Source: Planctomycetota bacterium
GTDB taxonomy: Bacteria; Planctomycetota; Planctomycetia; Pirellulales; Thermoguttaceae
Reading direction: 5' to 3'
DNA: 64,000 bases
Assembly (NCBI GenBank): GCA_029550925.1
Contig: JAKPGL010000001.1
Location: 1 to 64,000 of the forward strand
Position numbers and translations under genes: made by a program
The notes under the pieces: model-generated
Told to the model about the DNA's origin: nothing
The model's input: the letters and a program-made list of their open reading frames with translations, nothing else
The model's database searches: none
Part shown: piece by piece, positions 1 through 12,234 of the stretch
How the letters are laid out: each line of letters opens with the position of its first letter
Numbering within the stretch: the stretch's first letter is position 1

Positions 1-213
1 GGGGCCGATAATGCCCAGCACCTCGCCCCGCCGGACCTGAAAACTCACCTCCTGCAAGGCCCAGAATTCGCGCTGGCCGAGCTGGTCCGGCTGCGGCCGA
101 CGCCCAAAAAGCCGACCCACCAGCGCCGGCACCCAATCCCGCAAACTGTCGTAATACTCGCCTCGTGAAAATCGCTTCCAGAGATCGACAACTTCCAGAA
201 CGACGTCGGACAT
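1..213 (-). CDS. Polysaccharide ABC transporter ATP-binding protein (Wzt-like), N-terminal fragment
   Basis: Only the first 71 codons are inside the window; the gene runs off the left edge. The reverse-strand reading starts with ATG at 213 and gives an N-terminus (MSDVVLEVVDLWKRFSRG) followed near residue 48 by EFWALQEVSFQVRRGEVLGI and then GP at the edge. That is the strand leading into the Walker A loop of O-antigen/teichoic-acid type exporters (Wzt/TagH family), which couple ATP hydrolysis to export of a lipid-linked polysaccharide. The Walker A lysine itself lies outside. The gene sits 14 bp after the stop of the secreted helical-repeat gene, and its likely permease partner is 4.4 kb upstream in the same operon. 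Whether a C-terminal glycan-binding domain is present cannot be seen. Confidence 0.85.
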   Translation of the reverse strand, partial: MSDVVLEVVDLWKRFSRGEYYDSLRDWVPALVGRLFGRRPQPDQLGQREFWALQEVSFQVRRGEVLGIIGP

Positions 214-227
214 GCGAAAAGAGTTGG

Positions 228-1826
228 CTATTGATTCGGGACAGATTGACGAGTCGAAGAACCGGATATGCCTTTATTAGGGATAAACTGAAGATCATGA
301 ATAACAATTGCTGAGCCAGCTTTAAGAGACAAATGATAATGTAAATAATGTTTAGAATCGTGCGGTTCAAAATGAACGGGGCGGGAATCTAAAAGGGCTT
401 TCAATTCTTGGTTTTCTATCCATATTTCCACAGTATGTTTTTTGCCTTCAGAAGGGAGGATAATCCTCGGAAAGTCGGTTTTAAGTTCTACATTACATAT
501 ATTGAGATCACATCGTTCTTTTTCTACACTAAACGTCATTAGCATCCTATGATTAACAATCGGGACATGTGTGAAAATTAATACGATCCAACCTGACTCT
601 GGGTGGGCAACCAGCCGATAGCCGCCGCCGGGAGCCTTCTCGATTTGGAGAAACTTAGAGCCATCGCCGCGCCAGCCGCCCGACCACCAAAGAACCGCAA
701 TGTTTTTCCGATTCTGCGGGTCGAGGTAATGGCGGGGGGCGGATTGAGCGGCGGTTTTCGGGGCTGTAGCGCCGGCCTCTTGGATGCGGCGTTGAGCCTT
801 GATCTTATCCAAACCGCCCAATTTGGGCAGGGCCTCCCCGTACCAATGAGCGCATCGGCCTTGCATGGCCGAGCGGGCTTGGGTGTCTTTTTCCTCCTGG
901 GCCCGCTGCCACCAGGCTTCGGCCAGGGCCGTCTGTTGGGCCGCCTCCGTAGGCTTGGCCAGGTCGTCGGCGGCCAGCTTGCGGAGCGATTCGTCGGCCG
1001 ATTGGGCCAAATGCGGAAGCCCTTCCTCCCATCGGCCTTTTTCAAAACACAAATACCGGCCCATCAGTAAGTTGGCTTCGGGGTCGTTGGGATTTTGGCG
1101 TAAGGCGTCTTTGGCGGCCTGGATTTTTTGATAGGCCTTGGCGGCCTGTTCCACCTCTTTATTTTGGGCGGTCAGACGCTTGATCAGCTCGGCGTTTTTG
1201 GTCCGGCGGGCGGCATTGAGCCCGAGTCGGCTCAGCCGAACCGCCATGTCATACGCATCGTGATCGAGCGCCTCTTGAACCAGCGGTTCAGCGGCCTCGG
1301 CCAGCTCCACCGGCGAGACGGGCGATCCGGTTTTGCTCAGGCCCTCCAAAGCCTCCGCTTTAATGGCCACGGCGTCCACTTGGAACCGTTCGATCATGGC
1401 GTCGGCGGCCCGAAGGGCAAACGAGACGTCGCCGGCCTGGACCGCCCACTGGCGGGCCGCCTGCAAGAGGGCAAACTGCTCGGCCGGTATCTGGGCATCC
1501 AGGCCCTCGGCCAAGAGACGCCCAGCAAAGGATCGCTTTTTCTCTGGGGTTTTGGCGGCGGTCATGTCGTCTTTATACACCTCGTCGAGCATTTTGAGGG
1601 CCTTTTGCACAGCGGCTTGGTCCGGGACAGGCTGCCGATGTGTAATCGCCGGTTTCCCTTCGGCCGCCTGCAAGAGGTCTTCCAATGTCATCGGAGGCGA
1701 CTTAGGGTCGGCGGGCGGCTCCTTTGTCTGTTCGGCGAAAACGGAAGCGGCACTTAGGCCGCCGCTCAGGACCAGGCCCACAAGAACGCCCCAGAATTGC
1801 CCATGCCTAACCATGTCTGTTCTCAT
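228..1826 (-). CDS. Secreted helical-repeat (TPR-like) protein of the polysaccharide operon, function unknown
   Basis: About 532 residues. The ATG at 1826 is preferred over an in-frame ATG at 1841 because a GGAGGAG Shine-Dalgarno lies 8 nt before it. The N-terminus has a signal-peptide pattern: basic start, hydrophobic core (GVLVGLVLSGGLSAASVFA) and then a polar, proline-rich linker. Residues about 60-360 are Ala/Leu/Glu/Lys-rich helices with a TPR-like segment (NPNDPEANLLMGRY). The last 170 residues are different: beta-rich and AT-richer in DNA, with many aromatic residues, and could be a separate carbohydrate- or protein-binding domain. No catalytic motif is recognised. Its place between the phosphatase and exporter ATPase genes suggests a periplasmic or surface role in polysaccharide assembly, which is inference. 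Confidence 0.7.
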   Translation of the reverse strand: MRTDMVRHGQFWGVLVGLVLSGGLSAASVFAEQTKEPPADPKSPPMTLEDLLQAAEGKPAITHRQPVPDQAAVQKALKMLDEVYKDDMTAAKTPEKKRSFAGRLLAEGLDAQIPAEQFALLQAARQWAVQAGDVSFALRAADAMIERFQVDAVAIKAEALEGLSKTGSPVSPVELAEAAEPLVQEALDHDAYDMAVRLSRLGLNAARRTKNAELIKRLTAQNKEVEQAAKAYQKIQAAKDALRQNPNDPEANLLMGRYLCFEKGRWEEGLPHLAQSADESLRKLAADDLAKPTEAAQQTALAEAWWQRAQEEKDTQARSAMQGRCAHWYGEALPKLGGLDKIKAQRRIQEAGATAPKTAAQSAPRHYLDPQNRKNIAVLWWSGGWRGDGSKFLQIEKAPGGGYRLVAHPESGWIVLIFTHVPIVNHRMLMTFSVEKERCDLNICNVELKTDFPRIILPSEGKKHTVEIWIENQELKALLDSRPVHFEPHDSKHYLHYHLSLKAGSAIVIHDLQFIPNKGISGSSTRQSVPNQ

Positions 1827-1900
1827 GGGATACTCCTCCATGTGGGATTCTTTTGTCCATTTACGCGGATTAGGTTTCGATACGCCGGAAAAGTTTTGTA

Positions 1901-1973: not shown

Positions 1974-2534
1974 TTAAAATTCTACAGGAGGTTCCCCCAT
2001 TTCTGCAAGGAAGGCCCCCAAGGCCGCGGGAAGCCGACCTTGATATTGGAGTATCCACAAGGCCGCCTCTCGGACCGCCCCCTCGCCGCCCCGACTCTTG
2101 AGCACATGATGGGCATGACGAAGAAACAGGGGATTGGCGTCCTGGACGGCCAAGACCAGTCCACACCGGCGTGCCAGGGGCAGATCGTTGATCTCGTCGC
2201 CCAGGCAGGCGGTTTCCGGCCAGCCGATCCCTTGCCGATAGAGCCAGGGTTCGATGGTTTCGGCTTTGTTTCGGCAGCCGAAAAAGGCGGCATCGACCTG
2301 GAGCCGGCGCGCCCGCCGCTCCAAAAGCTCCAGCCGTTCGCCCGAAGCCATGACGACCAGAATGCCTGCCCGGCGAAGCAGGAGGATGCCGACGCCGTCG
2401 CGGACGTTGAACTGTTTGGCTTCGCCGCCGCCGTCGAGATACCACATGCCGCCGTCGGTCATCGTGCCATCGACATCGACGACGAGGGCGCGAACCCGTT
2501 CGACGCGCATCCGAAGAGAAAGATTTTCTTCCAT
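1974..2534 (-). CDS. KdsC-like HAD phosphatase (KDO-8-P / nonulosonate-9-P phosphatase family)
   Basis: A 186-residue HAD-superfamily protein of the short, cap-less KdsC type. HAD motif I is DVDGTMTDG with the nucleophile and acid aspartates at residues 20 and 22. Motif II is the serine of ASGE near 64, motif III a lysine near 90, and motif IV GDEINDLP near 112-119. KdsC enzymes remove phosphate from 3-deoxy-octulosonate-8-phosphate. Closely related proteins act on KDN-9-phosphate or Neu5Ac-9-phosphate. Here the next upstream gene is a NeuB-like synthase rather than KdsA, so a nonulosonate-9-phosphate is the more likely substrate. An in-frame GTG one codon earlier (2537) is an alternative start. 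No strong Shine-Dalgarno is visible, in keeping with translation from a polycistronic message. Confidence 0.88.
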   Translation of the reverse strand: MEENLSLRMRVERVRALVVDVDGTMTDGGMWYLDGGGEAKQFNVRDGVGILLLRRAGILVVMASGERLELLERRARRLQVDAAFFGCRNKAETIEPWLYRQGIGWPETACLGDEINDLPLARRCGLVLAVQDANPLFLRHAHHVLKSRGGEGAVREAALWILQYQGRLPAALGAFLAEMGEPPVEF

Positions 2535-2582
2535 CACACCGAAAATCCGAATCGGTTTGCCGAGGTTAGAGACAATCAGAAC

Positions 2583-3674
2583 CTACTGAAACATTTCAGG
2601 TTTTAGATGGACATGGGCGGGAATGGGGAGTTTAGCTTTTCGGCCCAGCAGTCGGTCTCGCTCCCGCCAGGGGAGGCCATCGCCGGGACTGAGCATCACG
2701 AGGTCGGCTTCGGCAAGGACTTCACCGGGTTGGATCGGCCGGGCCGAGGCCAAGGACCGCTCCAATTTGGCCCGCACGGGAGCAACGACAGCGGCGCGCT
2801 GGGCGTCGGAAACCGGGCGGCGCGCCCGCTCCATATTACGGATGTCGCGCGTCATGCGCCAAAGGCCGTCCGGCTCCAACGCGCCGGCGTGATCACTGCC
2901 CTTGAGCCGCCGACTAATGGTGATGTGCTTTTCGATCACCCCGGCGCCCATGCACACAGCCGCCACCGGCGCTACAATGCCGATCGAGTGGTCCGAATAG
3001 CCGATCCGATACTGCGGATAACGCTCCTTGAGCCGACCGAGCCGACCAAGATCAAGGTTCTCATAATGAGCCGGATATTCGGAAATCGAATGCAGGATGG
3101 TAATCTGCTCATGACGACGGGCGATCTCTTCCAAAGCGACGTCCAACTCCGACCAATCGGTCATCATCCCCGTAGAAAGCATGATCGGAATCCGCGTGTC
3201 GGCCAGGACACGCAACAAGGGAATGTTGGTCAGGTCTCGGGAAGCGACCTTGAGATAGTCAATTCGCACCATCTCGCAAAGCCGAACGCATCGCGGCGAA
3301 CAAAGCGTCTCGACCAGAAGCAGGCCCTTCTCATGGATATATTGGCCGAGGTCTCGATGCTCCTCATAACTCAGTTCCAGAGCCTCCCGATGCTTGCCGT
3401 AGGTGGGGCCGAAGGCGTGAGGCGAATCATAGGGCGCCTGGTAAGCGTCCACGGTCAGCTCTTCGCTCAGGTCGCGCTTTTGCAGCTTGACCGCATCGAC
3501 GCCGGGCAGTTGTTCATGGGTGAAATAGTCGATGATCGGCATGGCCGCTATATCGACCAACGCTTGGGCAAAGGCCATCGAACCGTTGTGGTTTTGGCCG
3601 ATCTCGGCCACGATCAGGGTATGTTCCTCTATGGCTTCGGAAGGAAGCTGAGAGCGAGGCAAAACGTCTTCCAT
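2583..3674 (-). CDS. NeuB/SpsE-family nonulosonic acid synthase with C-terminal SAF domain
   Basis: A 363-residue protein with the two-domain layout of sialic acid synthases. The TIM-barrel part (residues about 18-285) contains AEIGQNHNG, ISEYPAHYENLDL, GYSDHS and EKHIT; the last two carry the metal-binding histidines near 229 and 250. The C-terminal antifreeze-like SAF domain (about 300-360) has RPIQPGEVL and LLGRKA. The family condenses phosphoenolpyruvate with a hexose or hexosamine, or its 6-phosphate, to make a nine-carbon acid. GGAGGG precedes the ATG. The neighbours are a HAD phosphatase downstream and a cytidylyltransferase upstream. No UDP-GlcNAc 2-epimerase (NeuC) is in the cluster, which favours a mannose-6-phosphate or N-acetylmannosamine-6-phosphate substrate. 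Substrate assignment is inference. Confidence 0.9.
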   Translation of the reverse strand: MEDVLPRSQLPSEAIEEHTLIVAEIGQNHNGSMAFAQALVDIAAMPIIDYFTHEQLPGVDAVKLQKRDLSEELTVDAYQAPYDSPHAFGPTYGKHREALELSYEEHRDLGQYIHEKGLLLVETLCSPRCVRLCEMVRIDYLKVASRDLTNIPLLRVLADTRIPIMLSTGMMTDWSELDVALEEIARRHEQITILHSISEYPAHYENLDLGRLGRLKERYPQYRIGYSDHSIGIVAPVAAVCMGAGVIEKHITISRRLKGSDHAGALEPDGLWRMTRDIRNMERARRPVSDAQRAAVVAPVRAKLERSLASARPIQPGEVLAEADLVMLSPGDGLPWRERDRLLGRKAKLPIPAHVHLKPEMFQ

Positions 3675-3757
3675 GAGAGGCCCTCCATGCTAGGAACCAA
3701 CCGACGCCGAGAAAAACAAAAACCGATCCTCCTATCCTGTCTGAACCCAACGGAGAA

Positions 3758-4594
3758 CTACCGAGTGGGGATTCCTTTAGAGTTTCGCCCCCTGTCGGGG
3801 ATCGAAACCAATGGTTTAGGGTTGGCTTGGTTGGCCTGGCGCATGGCCTGGACCAAACCGGGCTGATCGGCGATCCATGCGATCAATTCCTCTCGCGAAG
3901 AATGAACCGGACCCGACGTAAAAATATACCGAAGCCGATCCAAGTCGTCCGCCGTGTCGCAGGTCAGGCGAAGCCAACTGCAATCCGCCCACTCCGGCAG
4001 CGGCAACCACGCAGTATCATACCCGGATTGACTATAAACGCCTAGAGTAACATGCTCGGCCATTTCGGAAGTAGGAGCGGAGCGGACCAAACGGCGAAGG
4101 GCGTCCGTGGCTACCCACTCGGCAGTGAGTCCTGCCGGCGTGCAGATGGCCGGGGTCCCCACCGCGGTACGATATCCCGCATAGTCCGGACGGCGTTGCT
4201 CGGCGAATTGCACCAGACACCGGATCAGGTGCGGGTCCAACAGGGGGTTGTCGGCACAGACCCGGAGCACGGCGTCGGCCTCGAATGCCTCGGCTGCTTG
4301 CACAAAACGCTCTAGGACGTTCTCGGCCTCTCCGCGAAAAAGGGCCGTTTGCCGGGCGCGACAATGTTCTGCAATGGCGTCGTCCTCCGGCCGGGTCGTG
4401 GCGGCTACCACCACGTCGGCCAAGAGGGCGTCGGCCGCGGACGAAACCGCTCGCTCTGCCAACAAGGCGCCTGCCTGTCGGAGACAGTCCAACACAGCGT
4501 CTAGGAGTGTTTGCCCCGGGGTAAGAGGCAGAAGGACTTTGCCCGGCAATCGGGTCGATCCCATGCGCGCTTGGACGATGGCTACCGTGCGCAT
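3758..4594 (-). CDS. SpsF-like cytidylyltransferase (CMP-nonulosonate/KDO synthetase family)
   Basis: The N-terminus, MRTVAIVQARMGSTRLPGKV, is the diagnostic nucleotide-binding signature of SpsF/NeuA/KdsB-type cytidylyltransferases. About 278 residues. The ATG at 4594 puts this signature at the start. A TTG at 4657 would add 21 residues with no family counterpart. Further family features are DDAIAEHC near 75 and RVCADNPLLDP near 120, where the aspartate of the RxCxDNPL loop coordinates metal. The enzyme is expected to activate the nine-carbon acid made by the adjacent synthase with CTP before transfer into the glycan. It follows the ABC permease gene and precedes the synthase, in the same orientation. 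Confidence 0.85.
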   Translation of the reverse strand: MRTVAIVQARMGSTRLPGKVLLPLTPGQTLLDAVLDCLRQAGALLAERAVSSAADALLADVVVAATTRPEDDAIAEHCRARQTALFRGEAENVLERFVQAAEAFEADAVLRVCADNPLLDPHLIRCLVQFAEQRRPDYAGYRTAVGTPAICTPAGLTAEWVATDALRRLVRSAPTSEMAEHVTLGVYSQSGYDTAWLPLPEWADCSWLRLTCDTADDLDRLRYIFTSGPVHSSREELIAWIADQPGLVQAMRQANQANPKPLVSIPDRGRNSKGIPTR

Positions 4595-4667
4595 CCGCTG
4601 GCGTCCGCAGTTTTCCAAAGATAGTATCCGACCCGACGGCGTCTGCAACCGTCCCAAACGCCGCGGT

Positions 4668-5645
4668 TTAAATATACTCGGCGTACAAAAACTCCAATCG
4701 GTGGAACATGCGCCAACAGAATAACAGCCCTCCCACAGCCCAGACGGCGGAATAGACTAGCCAGCCCGGATGCCATAGATGCATCTCGACGCCGGCGGCG
4801 GTCGATGCGGTCAACACATGGAGCAGCCCATGATGCTCCACCACGGCGAGCCGCAAACCTTCGAGGATCGGGGCCAAGGGATTGAGCATCATCAGGCGAG
4901 AACCGATCGGCCCTAATATCTCTGTCTCGTAAAAGACGGGGGTAAAAAATATCCCAAAGGTGATTAAAAGCTGTGCGATATATTTCACATCCCGGAAAAA
5001 GACATTCGCACAACTAAGTACCAGCGCCAAAGCCTGGGTAAAAGCCACTAGCAGCAGGACCAACGGCAAAGCCCAAAGGCCGGTCCAGCTCAGCCCCACC
5101 CCCGGCAAAGCCACCACCGCCACCAGGACCAACACCGTACCAATGGAAGTATCGAATGCCTGCACCAGGACCGCTGACAGAGGAAACACCTCTCGCGGAA
5201 AATAGATTTTTGTCACCAGGCCGATGTTATTCGTCAGGCTATTGACGGCAAACCCCAGGGAACCGGCGAAAAAGGTCCAGGCCAACGCCTTGACGGCCAT
5301 GCCGGCCACCGCCTTGGTTTCCAGAGCGGAACCAGCCGTCTGGGCCAACACATATTTGACCACAAAGCCAGACCCCACCACCAAAATCGGCATCAATAGC
5401 GCCCAGCCAAATCCCATGACCGCCTGCTTATATCGGATGCGGATGTCCCGAAGGATCATCTGCCAAAGGAGTTCCCGGTAATAGAAAAGCTCCAGAAACA
5501 TTTCCCGCCAGGAGGCGGCCCCCGCGCCAGCCTCGAACTCCATCCACTCGGTCTCCGCCAGTTGCAGGTGGAGAGATGACAAAAGATTGCCTTCCGCAGG
5601 CAGGGAGTTCGGAAAAGTTTTAGGGACCTGGGGATCCGTGTCCAT
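4668..5645 (-). CDS. ABC-2 type polysaccharide export permease (Wzm/TagG-like)
   Basis: A 325-residue integral membrane protein with about six hydrophobic segments in the ABC2_membrane pattern. A cytoplasmic N-terminus carries the ELFYYRELLWQMILRDIRIR amphipathic region typical of Wzm/TagG permeases, followed by KQAVMGFGWALLMPIL. The central stretch has the NLVTKIYFPREVFPLSA-type sequence (here NIGLVTKIYFPREVFPLSA) that contacts the ATPase. It would form the membrane channel that moves an undecaprenyl-linked glycan across the inner membrane. Its ATPase partner is most likely the truncated gene at the left edge; the three sugar-acid genes and a secreted protein lie between them. The ATG at 5645 is the first in frame after the upstream ligase gene, 40 bp away. 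Confidence 0.9.
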   Translation of the reverse strand: MDTDPQVPKTFPNSLPAEGNLLSSLHLQLAETEWMEFEAGAGAASWREMFLELFYYRELLWQMILRDIRIRYKQAVMGFGWALLMPILVVGSGFVVKYVLAQTAGSALETKAVAGMAVKALAWTFFAGSLGFAVNSLTNNIGLVTKIYFPREVFPLSAVLVQAFDTSIGTVLVLVAVVALPGVGLSWTGLWALPLVLLLVAFTQALALVLSCANVFFRDVKYIAQLLITFGIFFTPVFYETEILGPIGSRLMMLNPLAPILEGLRLAVVEHHGLLHVLTASTAAGVEMHLWHPGWLVYSAVWAVGGLLFCWRMFHRLEFLYAEYI

Positions 5646-5685
5646 GTTTCACTCTCTCCCTGAGGGGTCTCCGTTTTTGACGGTG

Positions 5686-6999
5686 TTAGGCGGGAGCGGG
5701 TTGCCAGGAACGGTTAGGTTCCGGCGGCCTTTGGGTCATGGGGGCCCACTGCATGGCTGGTTGGGCCAGCAGGGCGGAATTGACCTTAAGGACCGCCGCT
5801 CCGAGCAATACTAAGTAATACGCAATCTCTAAGTTCACCAGACTCACAAAGGCTCCGGAGACGGCATAGCCGACCAGCCCGGCAATGACCATCCGGGCCG
5901 CCTCCGGAAACCACGGATGCCCCACCCTGGCCTTTCGACGGGTCAATGGATAAAGATACAACACCGTTTGTCCGTAAAAGGCCAGAAGCAAGGCCAACCC
6001 AGGAAAGCCAGTCTCCGCTCCGGCTTGGAACCACACCGAATGGATGTAGATAGGCCGGATGCCCACCTGATGGCAGTAATGCATCCAATGTCCAGGTCCT
6101 ACGCCGAACAGGGGATTTCGCTGCATGGCCTGCCAGGCATGGCCCCAGTATTCCAGCCGGGTATTGGCCGAGGTATCCCGCTCCTCCGGATCGACAAATA
6201 CGGTCAGGAACCGCTCTCGGACCTGATCGCCGGCTAATCGGAAGGCCAAGGCCAAAAGCAGGAGGAACAAAAGGTAATGTTTCGGCTCCCGGTGGATGAG
6301 CAAAAAGCCGGCAATACCGACGAAGATCAGTCCCATCATCCCGCCTCGCGACCAACAGAACATCACCGTATGGGCGCACAGCACCGCAGAGATCAGGCCG
6401 ATGGCTTTCAGCCAAAGCCGACGTTCGCCGAAACCCAAAAACATGGCCAGCCCGGCCCCACAGGCCATTTCCACCGCCACACAGTTATTATCCATAGCGG
6501 CGAACCCTTCGTTGCCGGCCCGGTTGTAACCGGCGTAATAGCTGAGATTCAATTCGTAGGCCAAATAGCCGAGGCTCAACGCCATCGTCCATGCCAGGGC
6601 TTTGGCGCGTCGGGGGGTGTCGATCAGCGAAATCCCGATCAAAAACATCAGTAGAATTTTGGACTGGTCCACGACATGCCATTGGGCCAGAGCTGGTATA
6701 TCGCTGGCGGCCCAGCCCACCACCTGCCAAAAGAATAACAGGACCAGCGTCAAGGTGATTCGGCCAGCCTGTTTACCTAACTTCCAATTGCCGAACCCCT
6801 GGATCAGCCAGCCAATGATCACCGCAATGGCCACGGTGCGGTCGTAGTAGGCGCCGGCCGGCACCGACCAGTACCACATGGCGGGCGGCTTGATGATGGC
6901 AAAACAGACATAGATTAAAAAACCCACATAGGGATAAAACAGACTCACTGCCGCCCCGCCATAGGTCATCGCATACGTGAAAAGTAAACCTTTTTCCAT
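5686..6999 (-). CDS. O-antigen ligase/polymerase family membrane protein (Wzy_C)
   Basis: A 437-residue polytopic protein with about ten to twelve transmembrane helices. The N-terminal stretch (YPYVGFLIYVCFAIIKPPAMWYW region) resembles the exosortase-associated putative O-glycosylation ligases. A large loop in the second half carries GVGPGHWMHYC and HSVWFQAGAETGFPGL, the conserved histidine/glutamate pattern of the Wzy_C domain, which joins glycan chains to lipid or protein acceptors. GAGG precedes the ATG by about 8 nt. The gene lies between the GT2 gene and the export permease. Ligase and polymerase cannot be told apart from sequence alone. Confidence 0.85.
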   Translation of the reverse strand: MEKGLLFTYAMTYGGAAVSLFYPYVGFLIYVCFAIIKPPAMWYWSVPAGAYYDRTVAIAVIIGWLIQGFGNWKLGKQAGRITLTLVLLFFWQVVGWAASDIPALAQWHVVDQSKILLMFLIGISLIDTPRRAKALAWTMALSLGYLAYELNLSYYAGYNRAGNEGFAAMDNNCVAVEMACGAGLAMFLGFGERRLWLKAIGLISAVLCAHTVMFCWSRGGMMGLIFVGIAGFLLIHREPKHYLLFLLLLALAFRLAGDQVRERFLTVFVDPEERDTSANTRLEYWGHAWQAMQRNPLFGVGPGHWMHYCHQVGIRPIYIHSVWFQAGAETGFPGLALLLAFYGQTVLYLYPLTRRKARVGHPWFPEAARMVIAGLVGYAVSGAFVSLVNLEIAYYLVLLGAAVLKVNSALLAQPAMQWAPMTQRPPEPNRSWQPAPA

Positions 7000-7047: not shown

Positions 7048-7911
7048 TCAATCCGCCGCAGCGTATCGCAGGATACACCAGAATGCCCGCAAGGCGTCTC
7101 GCAGACCGATCTTTTTGCCCTCCTGATACGTTCGACCAAAATAGCTGATACCCACTTCGTATATCCGGCATCGCCGTCGGGCCACCTTGGCCGTCAGTTC
7201 CAGTTCGATCCCAAAGCCGCGCTCCTTTAGCGTAGGAGCAATGGCCTCGATCACTTCCCGTCGGAACGCCTTGTAGCAGGTCTCCACGTCCGTCAGGTTC
7301 AGGTCCGTCAGCATGTTCGACAGTGTGGTAAGGCAACGGTTCGCCACATAATGCCAAAAGTACAGCACTCGGTGCGGCCCGTCGCTGGCAAATCGAGAGC
7401 CATAAACCACATCGGCCTTTCCTTCCACGATCGGCTGAATTAGCCTCGGATACTCCGCCGGGTCGTATTCCAAATCCGCGTCTTGGATCAGGACCACCTG
7501 CCCCTTGGCCTGGGCGAAACCGGTCCTCAGTGCCGCCCCTTTGCCAAGGTTCATCGGATGAAGAATGACCCGGAAGTTCTCTTCCGTAGGCAAACCGCTC
7601 AGATATTCCCTCGTCCCATCCGTGCTGCCGTCATCGACCACCAAAATTTCTTTCGGGATAGGGACGGCCCGAACCCGTCGGAGCAGTTCCTCGATGGTCG
7701 GCCGTTCATTATAGACCGGGATTACCACCGAAAGCAGAAAATCTTTCGGCAAAAGAAAAAAACCTAACCGTCGGGCCGCCCATGGGCCTAAACATTGGAC
7801 GATCGTCTCCGGCCGAACCAAAACCGGCGTCTGCACGCTGCTCCCACAAACCGGACAATTCGCCGGTCCTGTCGGCGGCGCATTCGAAGCGTTTTCCTTT
7901 TCTATGTTCAT
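7048..7911 (-). CDS. GT2 family glycosyltransferase (dolichol-phosphate mannosyltransferase-like) with N-terminal CxxC motif
   Basis: The GT-A catalytic domain starts with [20 protein letters not shown]. It continues with [22 protein letters not shown] and the metal-binding QDADLEYDP, followed by GSRF. This matches the DPM1/DesPM-like GT2 subgroup that transfers sugar from a nucleotide donor to a polyprenyl phosphate or to glycan intermediates. The 35 residues before the domain contain CPVCGSS, which may be half of a zinc ribbon and is unusual for this group. The start is uncertain. ATG at 7911 is taken here; a TTG at 7968 overlaps the upstream stop as TTGA and would add 19 residues. No C-terminal membrane helices are seen, so the protein is probably cytosolic or peripheral. 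Confidence 0.85.
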
Positions 7912-7964
7912 CGGGGGGAACTCGTCGGAATGTTTTCTTCGTACTTTCTGGGGAAGCGATCCGT

Positions 7965-9275
7965 TCAATCTCTAGGCGACTCGGTAGTCCCGGCTTTTGC
8001 ATCCCTTAGGCAAAGCGATTCCGCTCCGGGGCTGGACTCCGCTATCCCTAAGACCCGGGCCAACGGCCGAAGCGTTTCGTCCCATCGGTGGTGGGTTTCG
8101 ACATAGGTGCGCCCGGCCTGGCCCAAGGCCGTTCGACGTTGTGGATCCGCCCACAGCGCAAACAGTTTTTCCACCCAAGCCGAGGGTTCCTCGGCCGATT
8201 CGGCTTCCCGGCCTGGCTGGACGGCCAAACCTTCTAGGGCCTGCGGCGTGGCCAGCACCGCCTTGCCCATCGCTAATCCTTCCAATACTTTATTCTGAAT
8301 CCCTCGGGCCACCCGCAGGGGGACCACCACCACTTCCGCCTCGGCCAAATAGGGTCGGACATCCGGCGCAGGGCCTACAAGCCGAACTCCAGGCGTCTGC
8401 TGGGCTAGCCGATGGACCTCGCCGCTCGGATTACTGCCGACCACCACGAACTCGGCCTTCGGACACCGGCGGCGAACCAGGGGCCAAACCTCCTGACAGA
8501 ACCACGCAATCCCGTCGATATTGGCCTGGTAGTCCAACGCTCCCACAAACACACATCGGGCCTCGGCGTCCGGCGACGATTCCCCAGCCTCGCCGATTTT
8601 CCGGCTGGGCGAAAAGTTTGGATGGAAATATTCGATATCCACTCCGTTCAGGACTACTTGGATATTGGCCTCTGGGGCGATTCTTCGGTACAGTGCCGCC
8701 TCGTGCGGAGTCGTCAGCACTACCGCCGAGGCCCGCCGACCGATCTGGACTTCCAACCGCCGGAGCCGGCGTCCTTCCTCCCGATATACCCACCGCCGCC
8801 ATCCTCGGCTCAGGTCGGCGTAGTCGAACCACTTCTGACTATCCACATCCACCAGATCGACCACGGTCCGGACGTTTTCCAACCCCGGCAAGTCCAAATA
8901 CTGCGCCATGCTGGAGCAGAAGACCAGCACGGCGTCGGGCTGATGGTCCTGGAGCCAATCACGCAATTTTCGCCGCAACGAGCCGGATGCGAATAGTCCT
9001 TCCGTAGCGGTCCTCCCACAGAGAAACGACCAGGCCGCCCGGAGCCATCGCCGCCATCGCCCCCATCGCGTCCAGCCCACCCAACCGCATCGGCCCTCAA
9101 TCTCCTCGATCGCCTCCGCCGACGGCGTCTGTTCGCTCAAAAAGGCCAGGGCCACCTCGGCTCGCCGGACCAAATAATCCAATATATGAAACGATCGTAT
9201 CCGATCGCCCCGGTTCGGCGGATACGGAATCCGATGCACCAGAAATAAAACGGTCGGTCGAGAATCGTTCTTCAT
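7965..9275 (-). CDS. GT4 glycosyltransferase of the TIGR03087 (PEP-CTERM/EpsH-associated) type
   Basis: About 436 residues. The start is the ATG at 9275, which overlaps the deacetylase stop as ATGA, a classic coupled junction. The open frame extends far upstream but only as a shadow of that gene. Recognisable features are [19 protein letters not shown] at the N-terminus, [17 protein letters not shown] at the start of the C-terminal Rossmann domain, and [20 protein letters not shown] near 320. These match the 'sugar transferase, PEP-CTERM/EpsH1 system associated' group, which accompanies exosortase systems. In other bacteria the same operons contain the deacetylase type found next door. Donor and acceptor sugars are unknown. 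Confidence 0.88.
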
Positions 9276-10234
9276 CGGTTCTCTGCCGCCCCCTGGGGAT
9301 GGGGCGTCAATCGCACGACGCTTTCCGTCTGTCGAACCGTCGCTGCATCCTGGTTGTCTATGTGTTTTCTCATCACTTCGCCCAAAGGGGCGAAACAAAA
9401 TTGCTCCATCAACGCCTCCAGCCGACGCACCGTGGCCGACAGGTTCCAATAGTGGCGGAATCGACTCAACAGCTTGCCGGGCAACCGCGGCTGGTGCGGG
9501 TCCAGCTCCCAAGGATGCACATAGAACACAAAAGGCCGACCTTCCCGCCGGATGGCCCGTAAAAGCCACAACGTCAGCCGAAGCGGATAAAGCCGAAAGT
9601 ATCCCCCTCCCGCACAGGGCACATTGATTCCGCCGATGCGACAAACCGCCGGCGGGAATTCCCAAATCGGCCCCGACGGCGTCTCCACCCGATAAATGCC
9701 CACTGGCCTGTCCGGCGCACCGTACCGATCATGTCGAATCGGATACACGCTCGAATCGTACCGAAACCCCTCTTCGGCCAGTATCTCGAAAGCCCACCAA
9801 GACCTTTCTGTTATCGAAAAACTAGGCGCTCGATAACTGAGGATTTCCCGGCCCGTCAAGTGGCTCAGTACTTCTTTGGTCCGAACCAGGTCTTCCCGAA
9901 ACGCCTCCGGCGATTGCCGATAGATGCACTGGTGCCAGAAACCGTGGGCCCCGATTTCATGCCCCTCGTCCTGAATACGGTGAACCAAGTCGGGACAATT
10001 CTGGGCCGTCCATCCGAGCACAAAAAACGTCGCCCGTACTTGCCGACGCCGCAGGAGGGCCAACAACCGCTCCGTATTCTCCTTCACCCGGCTCGGATAT
10101 TTTTCCCAGTCCTTTCGATCAATTCGGTCCTCAAACGCACTGACCTGATAATAGTCCTCTACATCCACAGTCAAGGCGTTCGGCGGCAGAGAGACCCTGG
10201 AAGCGTTTTTCTTCCGAGAAAACACCGGGAACAT
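9272..10234 (-). CDS. Polysaccharide deacetylase (NodB fold, DUF3473 type, XrtA/EPS-associated)
   Basis: A 320-residue CE4-type protein. Motif 1 is TVDVEDYYQVSAF, where the second aspartate is the expected catalytic/metal residue. HEIGAHGFWHQ supplies the HxxxH metal histidines and RAPSFSI the next motif. The C-terminal part, with FPPAVCRIGGINVPCAGGGYF and VFYVHPWELDPHQPR, is the DUF3473 extension of exopolysaccharide operon deacetylases. It would remove acetyl groups from the glycan or its lipid-linked precursor. No signal peptide is evident, as is common in this subfamily. The gene is translationally coupled to the downstream glycosyltransferase by a 4-nt overlap. No clear Shine-Dalgarno precedes the ATG at 10234. 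Confidence 0.9.
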   Translation of the reverse strand: MFPVFSRKKNASRVSLPPNALTVDVEDYYQVSAFEDRIDRKDWEKYPSRVKENTERLLALLRRRQVRATFFVLGWTAQNCPDLVHRIQDEGHEIGAHGFWHQCIYRQSPEAFREDLVRTKEVLSHLTGREILSYRAPSFSITERSWWAFEILAEEGFRYDSSVYPIRHDRYGAPDRPVGIYRVETPSGPIWEFPPAVCRIGGINVPCAGGGYFRLYPLRLTLWLLRAIRREGRPFVFYVHPWELDPHQPRLPGKLLSRFRHYWNLSATVRRLEALMEQFCFAPLGEVMRKHIDNQDAATVRQTESVVRLTPHPQGAAENR

Positions 10235-10352: not shown

Positions 10353-11222
10353 TTAACTCAATGGCGCCGTGGTCTGGGGAAGGTGTGCCTTGCGAGCCCC
10401 GTTCCCGCCGGTGGAAAGCGTAACCAATTTCGGCAACAACTCCGCAGGAAATGTGGTAGGCGCTCCAGACGCCGGAGGCTTCGCTTCCGGTTTGGCGGTT
10501 TCCATCGCCGATTCCAGGGCGGCCGGCTCTCGATACAGGCCCAATTTCCGGGCAAGCCACATCCCCGGAAATCCAAACAGCCGCACCGCCGTACACAACA
10601 AAATCTTCAAATCCAATTTCCAATTGGCCGTCCGAATATATTCCAAATCCAACAGAAGCTTCTTCCGCACATTATCCACATCGGTATCCGGCGGCAGATT
10701 GATCTGCGCCAGCCCAGTGATTCCCGGCGGCACTACATAGCGCCTCATATACCCCGGCACTTCCTGGGCCAGATATTCGGTAAACTCCGGGCGTTCCGGC
10801 CTGGGACCGACGAGCGACATATGCCCCATCAGCACGTTGAAAAGCTGCGGCAATTCGTCCAGATGTACCGCCCGCAGAAGTTTACCGAATTTCGTAATCC
10901 GGGGATCGTTCGGCGCGGTCCAGACCGGTCCTGTCAGGGCCTCGGCGTTGTGGATCATCGTACGGATTTTGTACAGCGTGAACACCCGACCGTTCCGCCC
11001 CACCCGCTTCTGCCGATAAATCCCCGGCCCATACGAGGTCAGCCGAACCAAAAAGACCAACACCCCAATAATCGGAATCGCCGGCACGAGCAAAATCCCT
11101 GCCCCGATCCGATTCAGCCAACCCACCCAACGAAAATACCTCTCTGCCGCCTCCCCTGGCGCAGGCGACGGCGTCGGTGGGATATGGTACTCTGGCTCAT
11201 ATTTTCGCCAAAAAAAAGCCAT
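10353..11222 (-). CDS. Polyprenyl-phosphate glycosyl-1-phosphate transferase (WbaP/WcaJ catalytic domain)
   Basis: A 289-residue, single-domain monotopic phosphoglycosyl transferase. One hydrophobic re-entrant segment (GILLVPAIPIIGVLVFLV) is followed by IYRQKRVGRNGRVFTLYKIR, then by DPRITKFGKLLRAVHLDELP and LMGHMSLVGPRPE. The conserved aspartate-glutamate pair (LDELPQ) is the catalytic dyad. It starts glycan assembly by moving a sugar-1-phosphate onto undecaprenyl phosphate. The multi-span N-terminal region of full-length WbaP is absent, as in many planctomycetes. The C-terminal 70 residues are low-complexity and not conserved. It follows the antiterminator gene after 392 bp of repeat-bearing DNA. 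Confidence 0.92.
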   Translation of the reverse strand: MAFFWRKYEPEYHIPPTPSPAPGEAAERYFRWVGWLNRIGAGILLVPAIPIIGVLVFLVRLTSYGPGIYRQKRVGRNGRVFTLYKIRTMIHNAEALTGPVWTAPNDPRITKFGKLLRAVHLDELPQLFNVLMGHMSLVGPRPERPEFTEYLAQEVPGYMRRYVVPPGITGLAQINLPPDTDVDNVRKKLLLDLEYIRTANWKLDLKILLCTAVRLFGFPGMWLARKLGLYREPAALESAMETAKPEAKPPASGAPTTFPAELLPKLVTLSTGGNGARKAHLPQTTAPLS

Positions 11223-11614: not shown

Positions 11615-12178
11615 TTAGTCGATCCGTTCCAGTTGGAAGTCGGCGATTTCGACGGAAGCCCCTTTTTGCAAAAACTGCACCGCCACCAAAAGCCGATCCC
11701 CACTCCGACGCCGAATCACCACCCCTTCCAACCCCGCCAACGCTCCGCTGCGTATTCGCACCCGATGCCCCGCTTCCAATTGCGCCTCTGGCGTCAGCGC
11801 CATGCCGCTTGCGATCAACCGTTGGATCTGCCGAAGATCGTGGATCAGTTCTACTTCGTCCGGCACTTCCAGCGAGCGGCTTACACACTGGGTGGTCATC
11901 GCCTGGTACCGATCCATTTCCGTTCCCGCCAAAAACACATAGCCCGGGAAAAGCGGCGTCCAGACGCTCCGCGCCCGGCCCGACGGCGACCGATACCGTC
12001 GGCAAACAAGCGGACAGTAATGCCACACGCCCATCCGCCGAAGCCGACGCACGAGTTCCTTTTCCCGCCTGGGCAGTGTATAAAGAGCCCACCACCGGCC
12101 CTCGGCCAGTTCCTCTAGCCGCGTGGGCGATAAAAGGTCCTCGGGAAACGTGTCCGGCTCTTGGGGCAAAATCGGCAT
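11615..12178 (-). CDS. NusG/RfaH-like transcription antiterminator (UpxY-like), first gene of the polysaccharide operon
   Basis: A 187-residue NusG paralogue. The NGN domain contains WWALYTLPRREKELVRRL and PLFPGYVFLAG, the RNA-polymerase-binding face of NusG/RfaH/UpxY proteins. A KOW motif follows at the C-terminus (GHRVRIRSGALAGLEGVV). Specialised NusG paralogues at the head of capsule or EPS operons let RNA polymerase read through long clusters; here about 12 kb of same-strand genes follow. The ATG at 12178 is chosen because GGAGGAG lies just upstream; a TTG at 12229 would add 17 residues. It is unlikely to be the housekeeping NusG, since no ribosomal protein or secE gene is adjacent. Confidence 0.88.
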   Translation of the reverse strand: MPILPQEPDTFPEDLLSPTRLEELAEGRWWALYTLPRREKELVRRLRRMGVWHYCPLVCRRYRSPSGRARSVWTPLFPGYVFLAGTEMDRYQAMTTQCVSRSLEVPDEVELIHDLRQIQRLIASGMALTPEAQLEAGHRVRIRSGALAGLEGVVIRRRSGDRLLVAVQFLQKGASVEIADFQLERID

Positions 12179-12234
12179 GAACTCCTCCGATCCATCTTGA
12201 GGAAACGAAATGCTCCAACTTCTTATCAAATAGA

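Follow-up and report, generated by a model that had tools for sequence, protein, structure and literature searches.

Which nonulosonic acid could be made by a locus that encodes a synthase, a phosphatase and a cytidylyltransferase and no epimerase, and from which precursor? The question arises from the window analysed here (the whole stretch of 64,000 nucleotides), in which the first-pass annotation had described a NeuB/SpsE-like synthase, a KdsC-like HAD phosphatase and an SpsF-like cytidylyltransferase as consecutive genes. ORF calling returned the three genes at exactly the same positions, and profile searches confirmed their families. We regard a KDN-type nonulosonic acid pathway that feeds an exported glycan as the best explanation of this trio, and as a probable one. 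Judged separately from the sequence comparisons below, a phosphorylated route appears very likely, and KDN in particular is a likely product.

Gene content of the locus

All three genes lie on the minus strand in the order cytidylyltransferase, synthase, phosphatase, with intergenic gaps of 83 bp and 45 bp. The cytidylyltransferase (3758..4594; PF02348, CTP_transf_3, 75.6 bits; PDB 6oew, E 2.6e-15), an SpsF-like protein of the COG1861 type and the proposed CMP-KDN synthetase, comprises 278 aa when read from the ATG at 4594; the longest ORF starts at 4657. It is followed by the proposed KDN-9-phosphate synthase (2583..3674), which combines a NeuB-family domain (PF03102, 201 bits) with a C-terminal SAF domain (PF08666), and by a KdsC-like C0 HAD phosphatase (1974..2537; sub-cut-off matches to PRK09484 and NF058599), the proposed KDN-9-phosphate phosphatase. 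A co-encoded NeuB-family synthase, phosphatase and CMP-transferase is the gene set expected for a KDN-type 9-phosphate pathway.

The trio is part of a single minus-strand operon, with the gene for the permease of an ABC glycan exporter (Wzm) on one side and that for its ATPase (Wzt) on the other. The operon begins with a NusG/RfaH-like antiterminator (11615..12229; PF02357, 34 bits), followed by a WcaJ-like initiating sugar-phosphate transferase (10353..11222; PF02397, 188 bits), a polysaccharide deacetylase with DUF3473 (9272..10234; PF01522, PF11959), a group 1/GT4 glycosyltransferase (7965..9281; PF13692, 85.9 bits) and a family 2 glycosyltransferase (GT2, 7048..7968; PF00535, 128.9 bits). 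Next come a Wzy_C or O-antigen-ligase-like membrane protein (5686..6999; PF04932, 69.6 bits; DUF5935), which resembles the exosortase-A-associated O-ligases (TIGR03097, 146 bits against a cut-off of 188), and the Wzm-type ABC-2 permease (4668..5645; PF01061; galactan export Wzm, 44 bits, sub-cut-off). On the other side of the trio we found a secreted-looking protein of 537 aa (228..1841; TPR_17, 16.9 bits, sub-cut-off) and the 5' part of Wzt with its start codon (1..213; PF00005, PF14524), which is cut by the contig end. The flanking Wzm and Wzt genes support the earlier suggestion that a nine-carbon acid enters an exported glycan. The window also encodes two DUF1559/SBP_bac_10 pilin-like proteins and one PEP-CTERM protein, which make a planctomycete host plausible.

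The start of the window is the start of contig C32, and its first 141 bases match the beginning of contig C43 exactly, in the opposite orientation. As both contigs belong to the same assembly, this shared end allows the operon to be joined. The rest of Wzt, with its Wzt_C domain, lies on C43 (L151:1-1197) and is followed by UDP-galactopyranose mutase, a weak GT2 match and a phosphoribosyltransferase-like ORF. The last 141 bases of C43 matched no other contig, so there is no further overlap. A linked epimerase/aminotransferase set just beyond the left edge would have spoken against the KDN-type reading; the 3.6 kb on C43 hold Wzt, UDP-galactopyranose mutase and a glycosyltransferase instead. 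Two of the three WecB genes in the genome are cut by contig ends, and neither copy fits as a continuation of the left edge.

Residue signature of the synthase

With 238.1 bits against TIGR03569 (NeuB, cut-off 399.65) and 168.4 bits against TIGR03586 (PseI, cut-off 340.25), the synthase stays below both equivalog thresholds. Its nearest solved structures are SpsE, NeuB and PseI, and its AlphaFold2 model (pLDDT 89.4) matches NeuB best in the PDB. In an alignment with 55 homologues, NmNeuB and SpsE, the PEP- and metal-site residues are retained throughout. In the synthase tree, which was built without BT1714, the window synthase falls into the phosphatase-linked half, outside the half with the NeuC-linked, PseI and SpsE sequences, in a clade of 11 members with a support of 100. 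The first-pass annotation had treated phosphatase-linked bacterial synthases as unusual; this did not hold, since roughly one in two synthases of the sampled tree is of this kind.

The window synthase is characterized by K66-R67, Y92, R96, K303 and Ser329, the latter at the position of NmNeuB Arg314. Within the phosphatase-linked half K66 is present in 33 of 34 sequences, R67 and an Arg or Lys at position 96 in all 34, and K303 in 32 (plus one Arg). The other 21 sequences, of the NeuB, Leg and Pse types, lack this basic signature: they carry T, M or A at 66, F, Y or H at 67, L, Y or another uncharged residue at 96 and mostly V, I or R at 303 (Arg in four). The basic residues K66, R67, R96 and K303 may hold the 6-phosphate of the substrate. 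The position of Arg314, a residue that we take to contact the N-acetyl group of ManNAc and for which solved structures of the NmNeuB R314A and R314K mutants exist, is Arg or Lys in 9 of 9 NeuC-linked synthases and Ser in 16 of 16 members of the window clade; the window synthase has thus lost the equivalent arginine. In the SAF-less phosphatase-linked class the position is missing together with the SAF domain. The sole Arg-type synthase with a phosphatase nearby (L080:8742-9860) belongs to a cluster that also holds a SAF-less synthase. In a test for independence the association between the Arg314 position and the phosphatase came down to one tree split with one independent pair, and it is therefore to be read as a coherent signature and not as independent statistical proof. 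In seven loci from the window's phylum (L066-L071, L073) the basic signature occurs with Gly, Ser or Ala at the Arg314 position, and no phosphatase was recognised nearby.

K66-R67, Y92, R96 and K303 together with the lack of Arg at 329 separate phosphatase-linked from NeuC-linked NeuB homologues. Automatic annotation tends to lump such synthases as 'N-acetylneuraminate synthase'; if assays confirm it, the signature would allow KDN/9-phosphate synthases to be distinguished in genome surveys from those for Neu5Ac, Leg and Pse.

The same signature bears on an animal-type Neu5Ac route, in which ManNAc-6-phosphate would be the substrate, alone or in addition, and the HAD protein a Neu5Ac-9-P phosphatase. 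Such a route shares the logic of a 9-phosphate synthase followed by a phosphatase. Human NANS, which accepts both mannose-6-P and ManNAc-6-P, presumably holds much of the signature as well (Q27, K66, Y92-G93-H95, a basic residue at 96, K303 and a non-Arg residue at 329). For the barrel of human NANS we found no solved structure, only the 79-residue antifreeze-like domain 1wvo. We nevertheless consider this route improbable, as the related trios carry phosphatases of the KDN-9-P type and the genome offers no evident source of ManNAc-6-P (both below).

The phosphatase and its counterparts in related loci

With NF058599, the equivalog model for KDN-9-P phosphatase, the HAD phosphatase reached 109.9 bits (cut-off 180), with the KdsC model PRK09484 117.4 bits (cut-off 208) and with a second KdsC model, TIGR01670, 105.5 bits (cut-off 106.95); being below the cut-offs on both sides it is filed in neither equivalog. 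Its nearest solved structures are KdsC and BT1713, to which it is 36% identical. At position 56 (BT1713 numbering) it has Glu like BT1713, where three solved KdsC enzymes have Arg, and at position 67 it has Arg where BT1713 has Lys. We take Glu56 together with Lys67 to mark KDN-9-P phosphatases and Arg56 to mark KdsC.

The phosphatase could also be the genome's KdsC for Kdo synthesis, placed here by chance, with the synthase using an unphosphorylated sugar. KdsA is present in the genome (G000:C35:3786-4637, L139), no second KdsC-type phosphatase was found in it at E 0.01, and the KdsC model slightly outscores the KDN-9-P model (117 vs 110 bits). Against a chance placement stand the Glu instead of Arg at position 56, the basic signature of the synthase, the fact that no free-ManNAc enzyme was found in the genome, and the recurrence of phosphatases from two unrelated HAD families in the same slot among the synthase relatives, so that we rate it as very unlikely. 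As the only KdsC-type phosphatase found in a genome that encodes KdsA, the protein may serve Kdo as well as KDN.

In the loci of close relatives the order of SpsF-like cytidylyltransferase and synthase recurs, mostly with a phosphatase alongside. Homologues of the cytidylyltransferase adjoin the synthase in L018, L020, L123-L127 and L130; in three of these (L123, L125, L126) no phosphatase was recognised beside the two genes. Six loci (L124, L128-L132) encode a C0 HAD that scores 211-263 bits against NF058599, above the cut-off of 180, with 53-62% identity to BT1713. In L018, L020, L127 and L133 the slot is filled by a HAD-I protein of an unrelated family, and on the synthase tree the type of phosphatase must have changed three times or more. 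With the family swapped in the same slot, it is the dephosphorylation step and not the particular enzyme that appears to be conserved, which suggests that selection keeps the step. The KDN-9-P-type phosphatases of the relatives, this persistent slot, the Ser at the Arg314 position and the absence of NeuC and NanE all favour the 9-phosphate KDN-type route proposed by the first-pass annotation.

Fusions and further arrangements were seen around related synthases. In the planctomycete family, a SAF-less synthase lies beside a cytidylyltransferase-HAD fusion (L025, L027, L030). Cytidylyltransferase-synthase fusions of about 580-620 aa occur at L131:5870-7615, L132:6847-8640 and L133:6247-8118. Two ORFs of about 558 aa (L128:4841-6517, L129:7304-8983; Pfam shown for L128) fuse a second NeuB-family domain with a cytidylyltransferase and directly precede the ordinary synthase, giving two synthase domains in tandem in a KDN-type locus. 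In L134-L138 a SAF-less synthase adjoins a KdsC-like HAD with no neighbouring cytidylyltransferase, and in L134 an HSP90 gene lies beside them.

Close kin of the synthase are rare in the organism's own family: among the 119 genomes searched they were found only in G023 (45% identity) and G021 (43%), and neither of the two listed genomes of the same genus has any. Higher identities were obtained for a Melioribacteraceae MAG (57%), a contig from a viral collection (56%) and eight further genomes sampled from the phylum of this MAG (50-53%). This distribution fits acquisition of the surface-glycan module by horizontal transfer.

Gene content of the genome

The genome assembly is 97.5% complete and the absences reported here rest on family searches, which makes them likely rather than certain. 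By profile search the genome contains exactly one NeuB; a second match on contig C176 is a DAHP synthase. No epimerase was found in the locus itself or past its left edge on C43, nor a NeuC or NanE elsewhere in the genome, in agreement with the first-pass annotation, which had also proposed a search for neuC and pseB/legB elsewhere in the genome. Three Epimerase_2 matches are all non-hydrolysing WecB (309-317 bits) and reach 22-58 bits with the NeuC model, for which the cut-off is 236. Neither a hydrolysing NeuC nor NanE was detected in the assembly, which leaves no evident source of ManNAc-6-P. The genome does encode manA, a type I phosphomannose isomerase (mannose-6-phosphate isomerase) that scores above its cut-off, so that a supply of mannose-6-P is present where NeuC and NanE are absent. 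The earlier proposal of mannose-6-phosphate as the precursor is thus favoured by the sequence tests.

A legionaminic or pseudaminic acid pathway with its remaining genes elsewhere is extremely unlikely. LegI and PseI do belong to the NeuB family, and contig C46 encodes a 704-aa CapD/PglF-like protein as a dehydratase candidate. This protein and weak SDR matches were all that the PF02719 search returned, with no stand-alone match of PseB/LegB strength in the genome. Moreover, no aminotransferase or acetyltransferase is linked to the trio, on C43 or otherwise, and the synthase, which lacks Arg314, is not placed in the NeuC-linked/PseI/SpsE half of the tree.

Comparison with known systems

The closest parallel is the KDN route of Bacteroides thetaiotaomicron, in which a synthase (BT1714), a phosphatase (BT1713) and a CMP-KDN synthetase carry out the same three steps, likewise from a compact trio. 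Both phosphatases are KdsC-like HAD proteins with Glu56, and relatives of the window synthase adjoin close BT1713 homologues. The window differs in the distance of its own phosphatase from BT1713, in its probable planctomycete host and in the position of the trio inside an ABC-exporter operon. On its gene content, the trio is a member of the B. thetaiotaomicron kind at the pathway level. Our literature search, of partial coverage, found no publications on KDN genes in planctomycetes. The trio would extend the mannose-6-phosphate (KDN) route known from Bacteroides to an ABC-exported glycan operon of a probable planctomycete.

BT1714 and the Kdn-9-P synthetase of Prymnesium use mannose-6-phosphate, the Prymnesium enzyme exclusively, and the human enzyme is listed with both substrates (PMC6200933, Table 2). 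Prymnesium parvum is a eukaryotic alga in which a phosphatase homologue was not found (PMC6200933). With the animal NANS/NANP/CMAS route the window shares a 9-phosphate synthase with SAF domain and a HAD phosphatase, and the HAD-I proteins of the four relatives named above are NANP-like; it differs in the lack of NanE and hydrolysing NeuC for ManNAc and in an SpsF-like instead of a CMAS cytidylyltransferase. Fold, PEP- and metal-site residues and SAF domain are common to the window synthase and to Neisseria NeuB, Campylobacter PseI and Bacillus SpsE, but NeuB and SpsE retain Arg314 without the K66-R67/R96/K303 signature, and synthases of the NeuB and Leg types are found linked with NeuC and not with a phosphatase. 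The Serratia marcescens KL1/KL2 capsule likewise contains KDN in an exported bacterial glycan, but the NeuB encoded there is fused to a COG1082 isomerase/epimerase-like domain (PMC9000132), which is missing from the window synthase. Bacterial glycans with KDN are known from Klebsiella, Sinorhizobium, Streptomyces and Serratia (PMC9000132).

A different phosphorylated nonulosonate, made from PEP and another aldose-6-phosphate or modified later to an isomer or derivative of KDN, would be in keeping with the clade-specific residues adjoining the active site (R146-D147, Ser329) and with the several sub-clades that differ in their domain fusions; such a modification could be the work of the polysaccharide deacetylase and the 537-aa protein. 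Yet mannose-6-phosphate is the substrate of those enzymes of the route that have been characterised (PMC6200933), and the phosphatases in related loci belong to the KDN-9-P kind; we find such a product hardly probable. The preference for KDN rests on three points: mannose-6-P is what pathways of this kind are known to use, no source of ManNAc or ManNAc-6-P was seen and the arginine in contact with the N-acetyl group is gone.

Proposed pathway and export

In the KDN-type pathway that we infer for substrate, product, activation, transfer and export, the type I phosphomannose isomerase would supply mannose-6-phosphate, which the NeuB-family synthase would condense with phosphoenolpyruvate to KDN-9-phosphate. 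The HAD phosphatase would then strip the phosphate to give KDN, and the SpsF-like enzyme would activate it to CMP-KDN. A glycosyltransferase would add KDN to a glycan started by the WcaJ-like transferase, and Wzm/Wzt would export the KDN-bearing product.

Kdo or methyl caps act as export signal in some O antigens. It is conceivable, if unlikely, that KDN forms a cap at the non-reducing end which the C-terminal domain of Wzt reads as an export signal. On this view, coupling of cap synthesis to export would explain why the trio is found between wzm and wzt, and a planctomycete would display a surface glycan that is KDN-capped and Wzt_C-gated.

No CMP-KDN transferase was recognised; the GT2 and GT4 proteins of the operon and the glycosyltransferase on C43 are candidates only. 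In one related locus, the KDN-type trio of L124 is flanked by proteins with weak matches to alpha-2,8-polysialyltransferase (PF07388; L124:8825-10021 and 4601-5818), which are candidate KDN transferases or polymerases.
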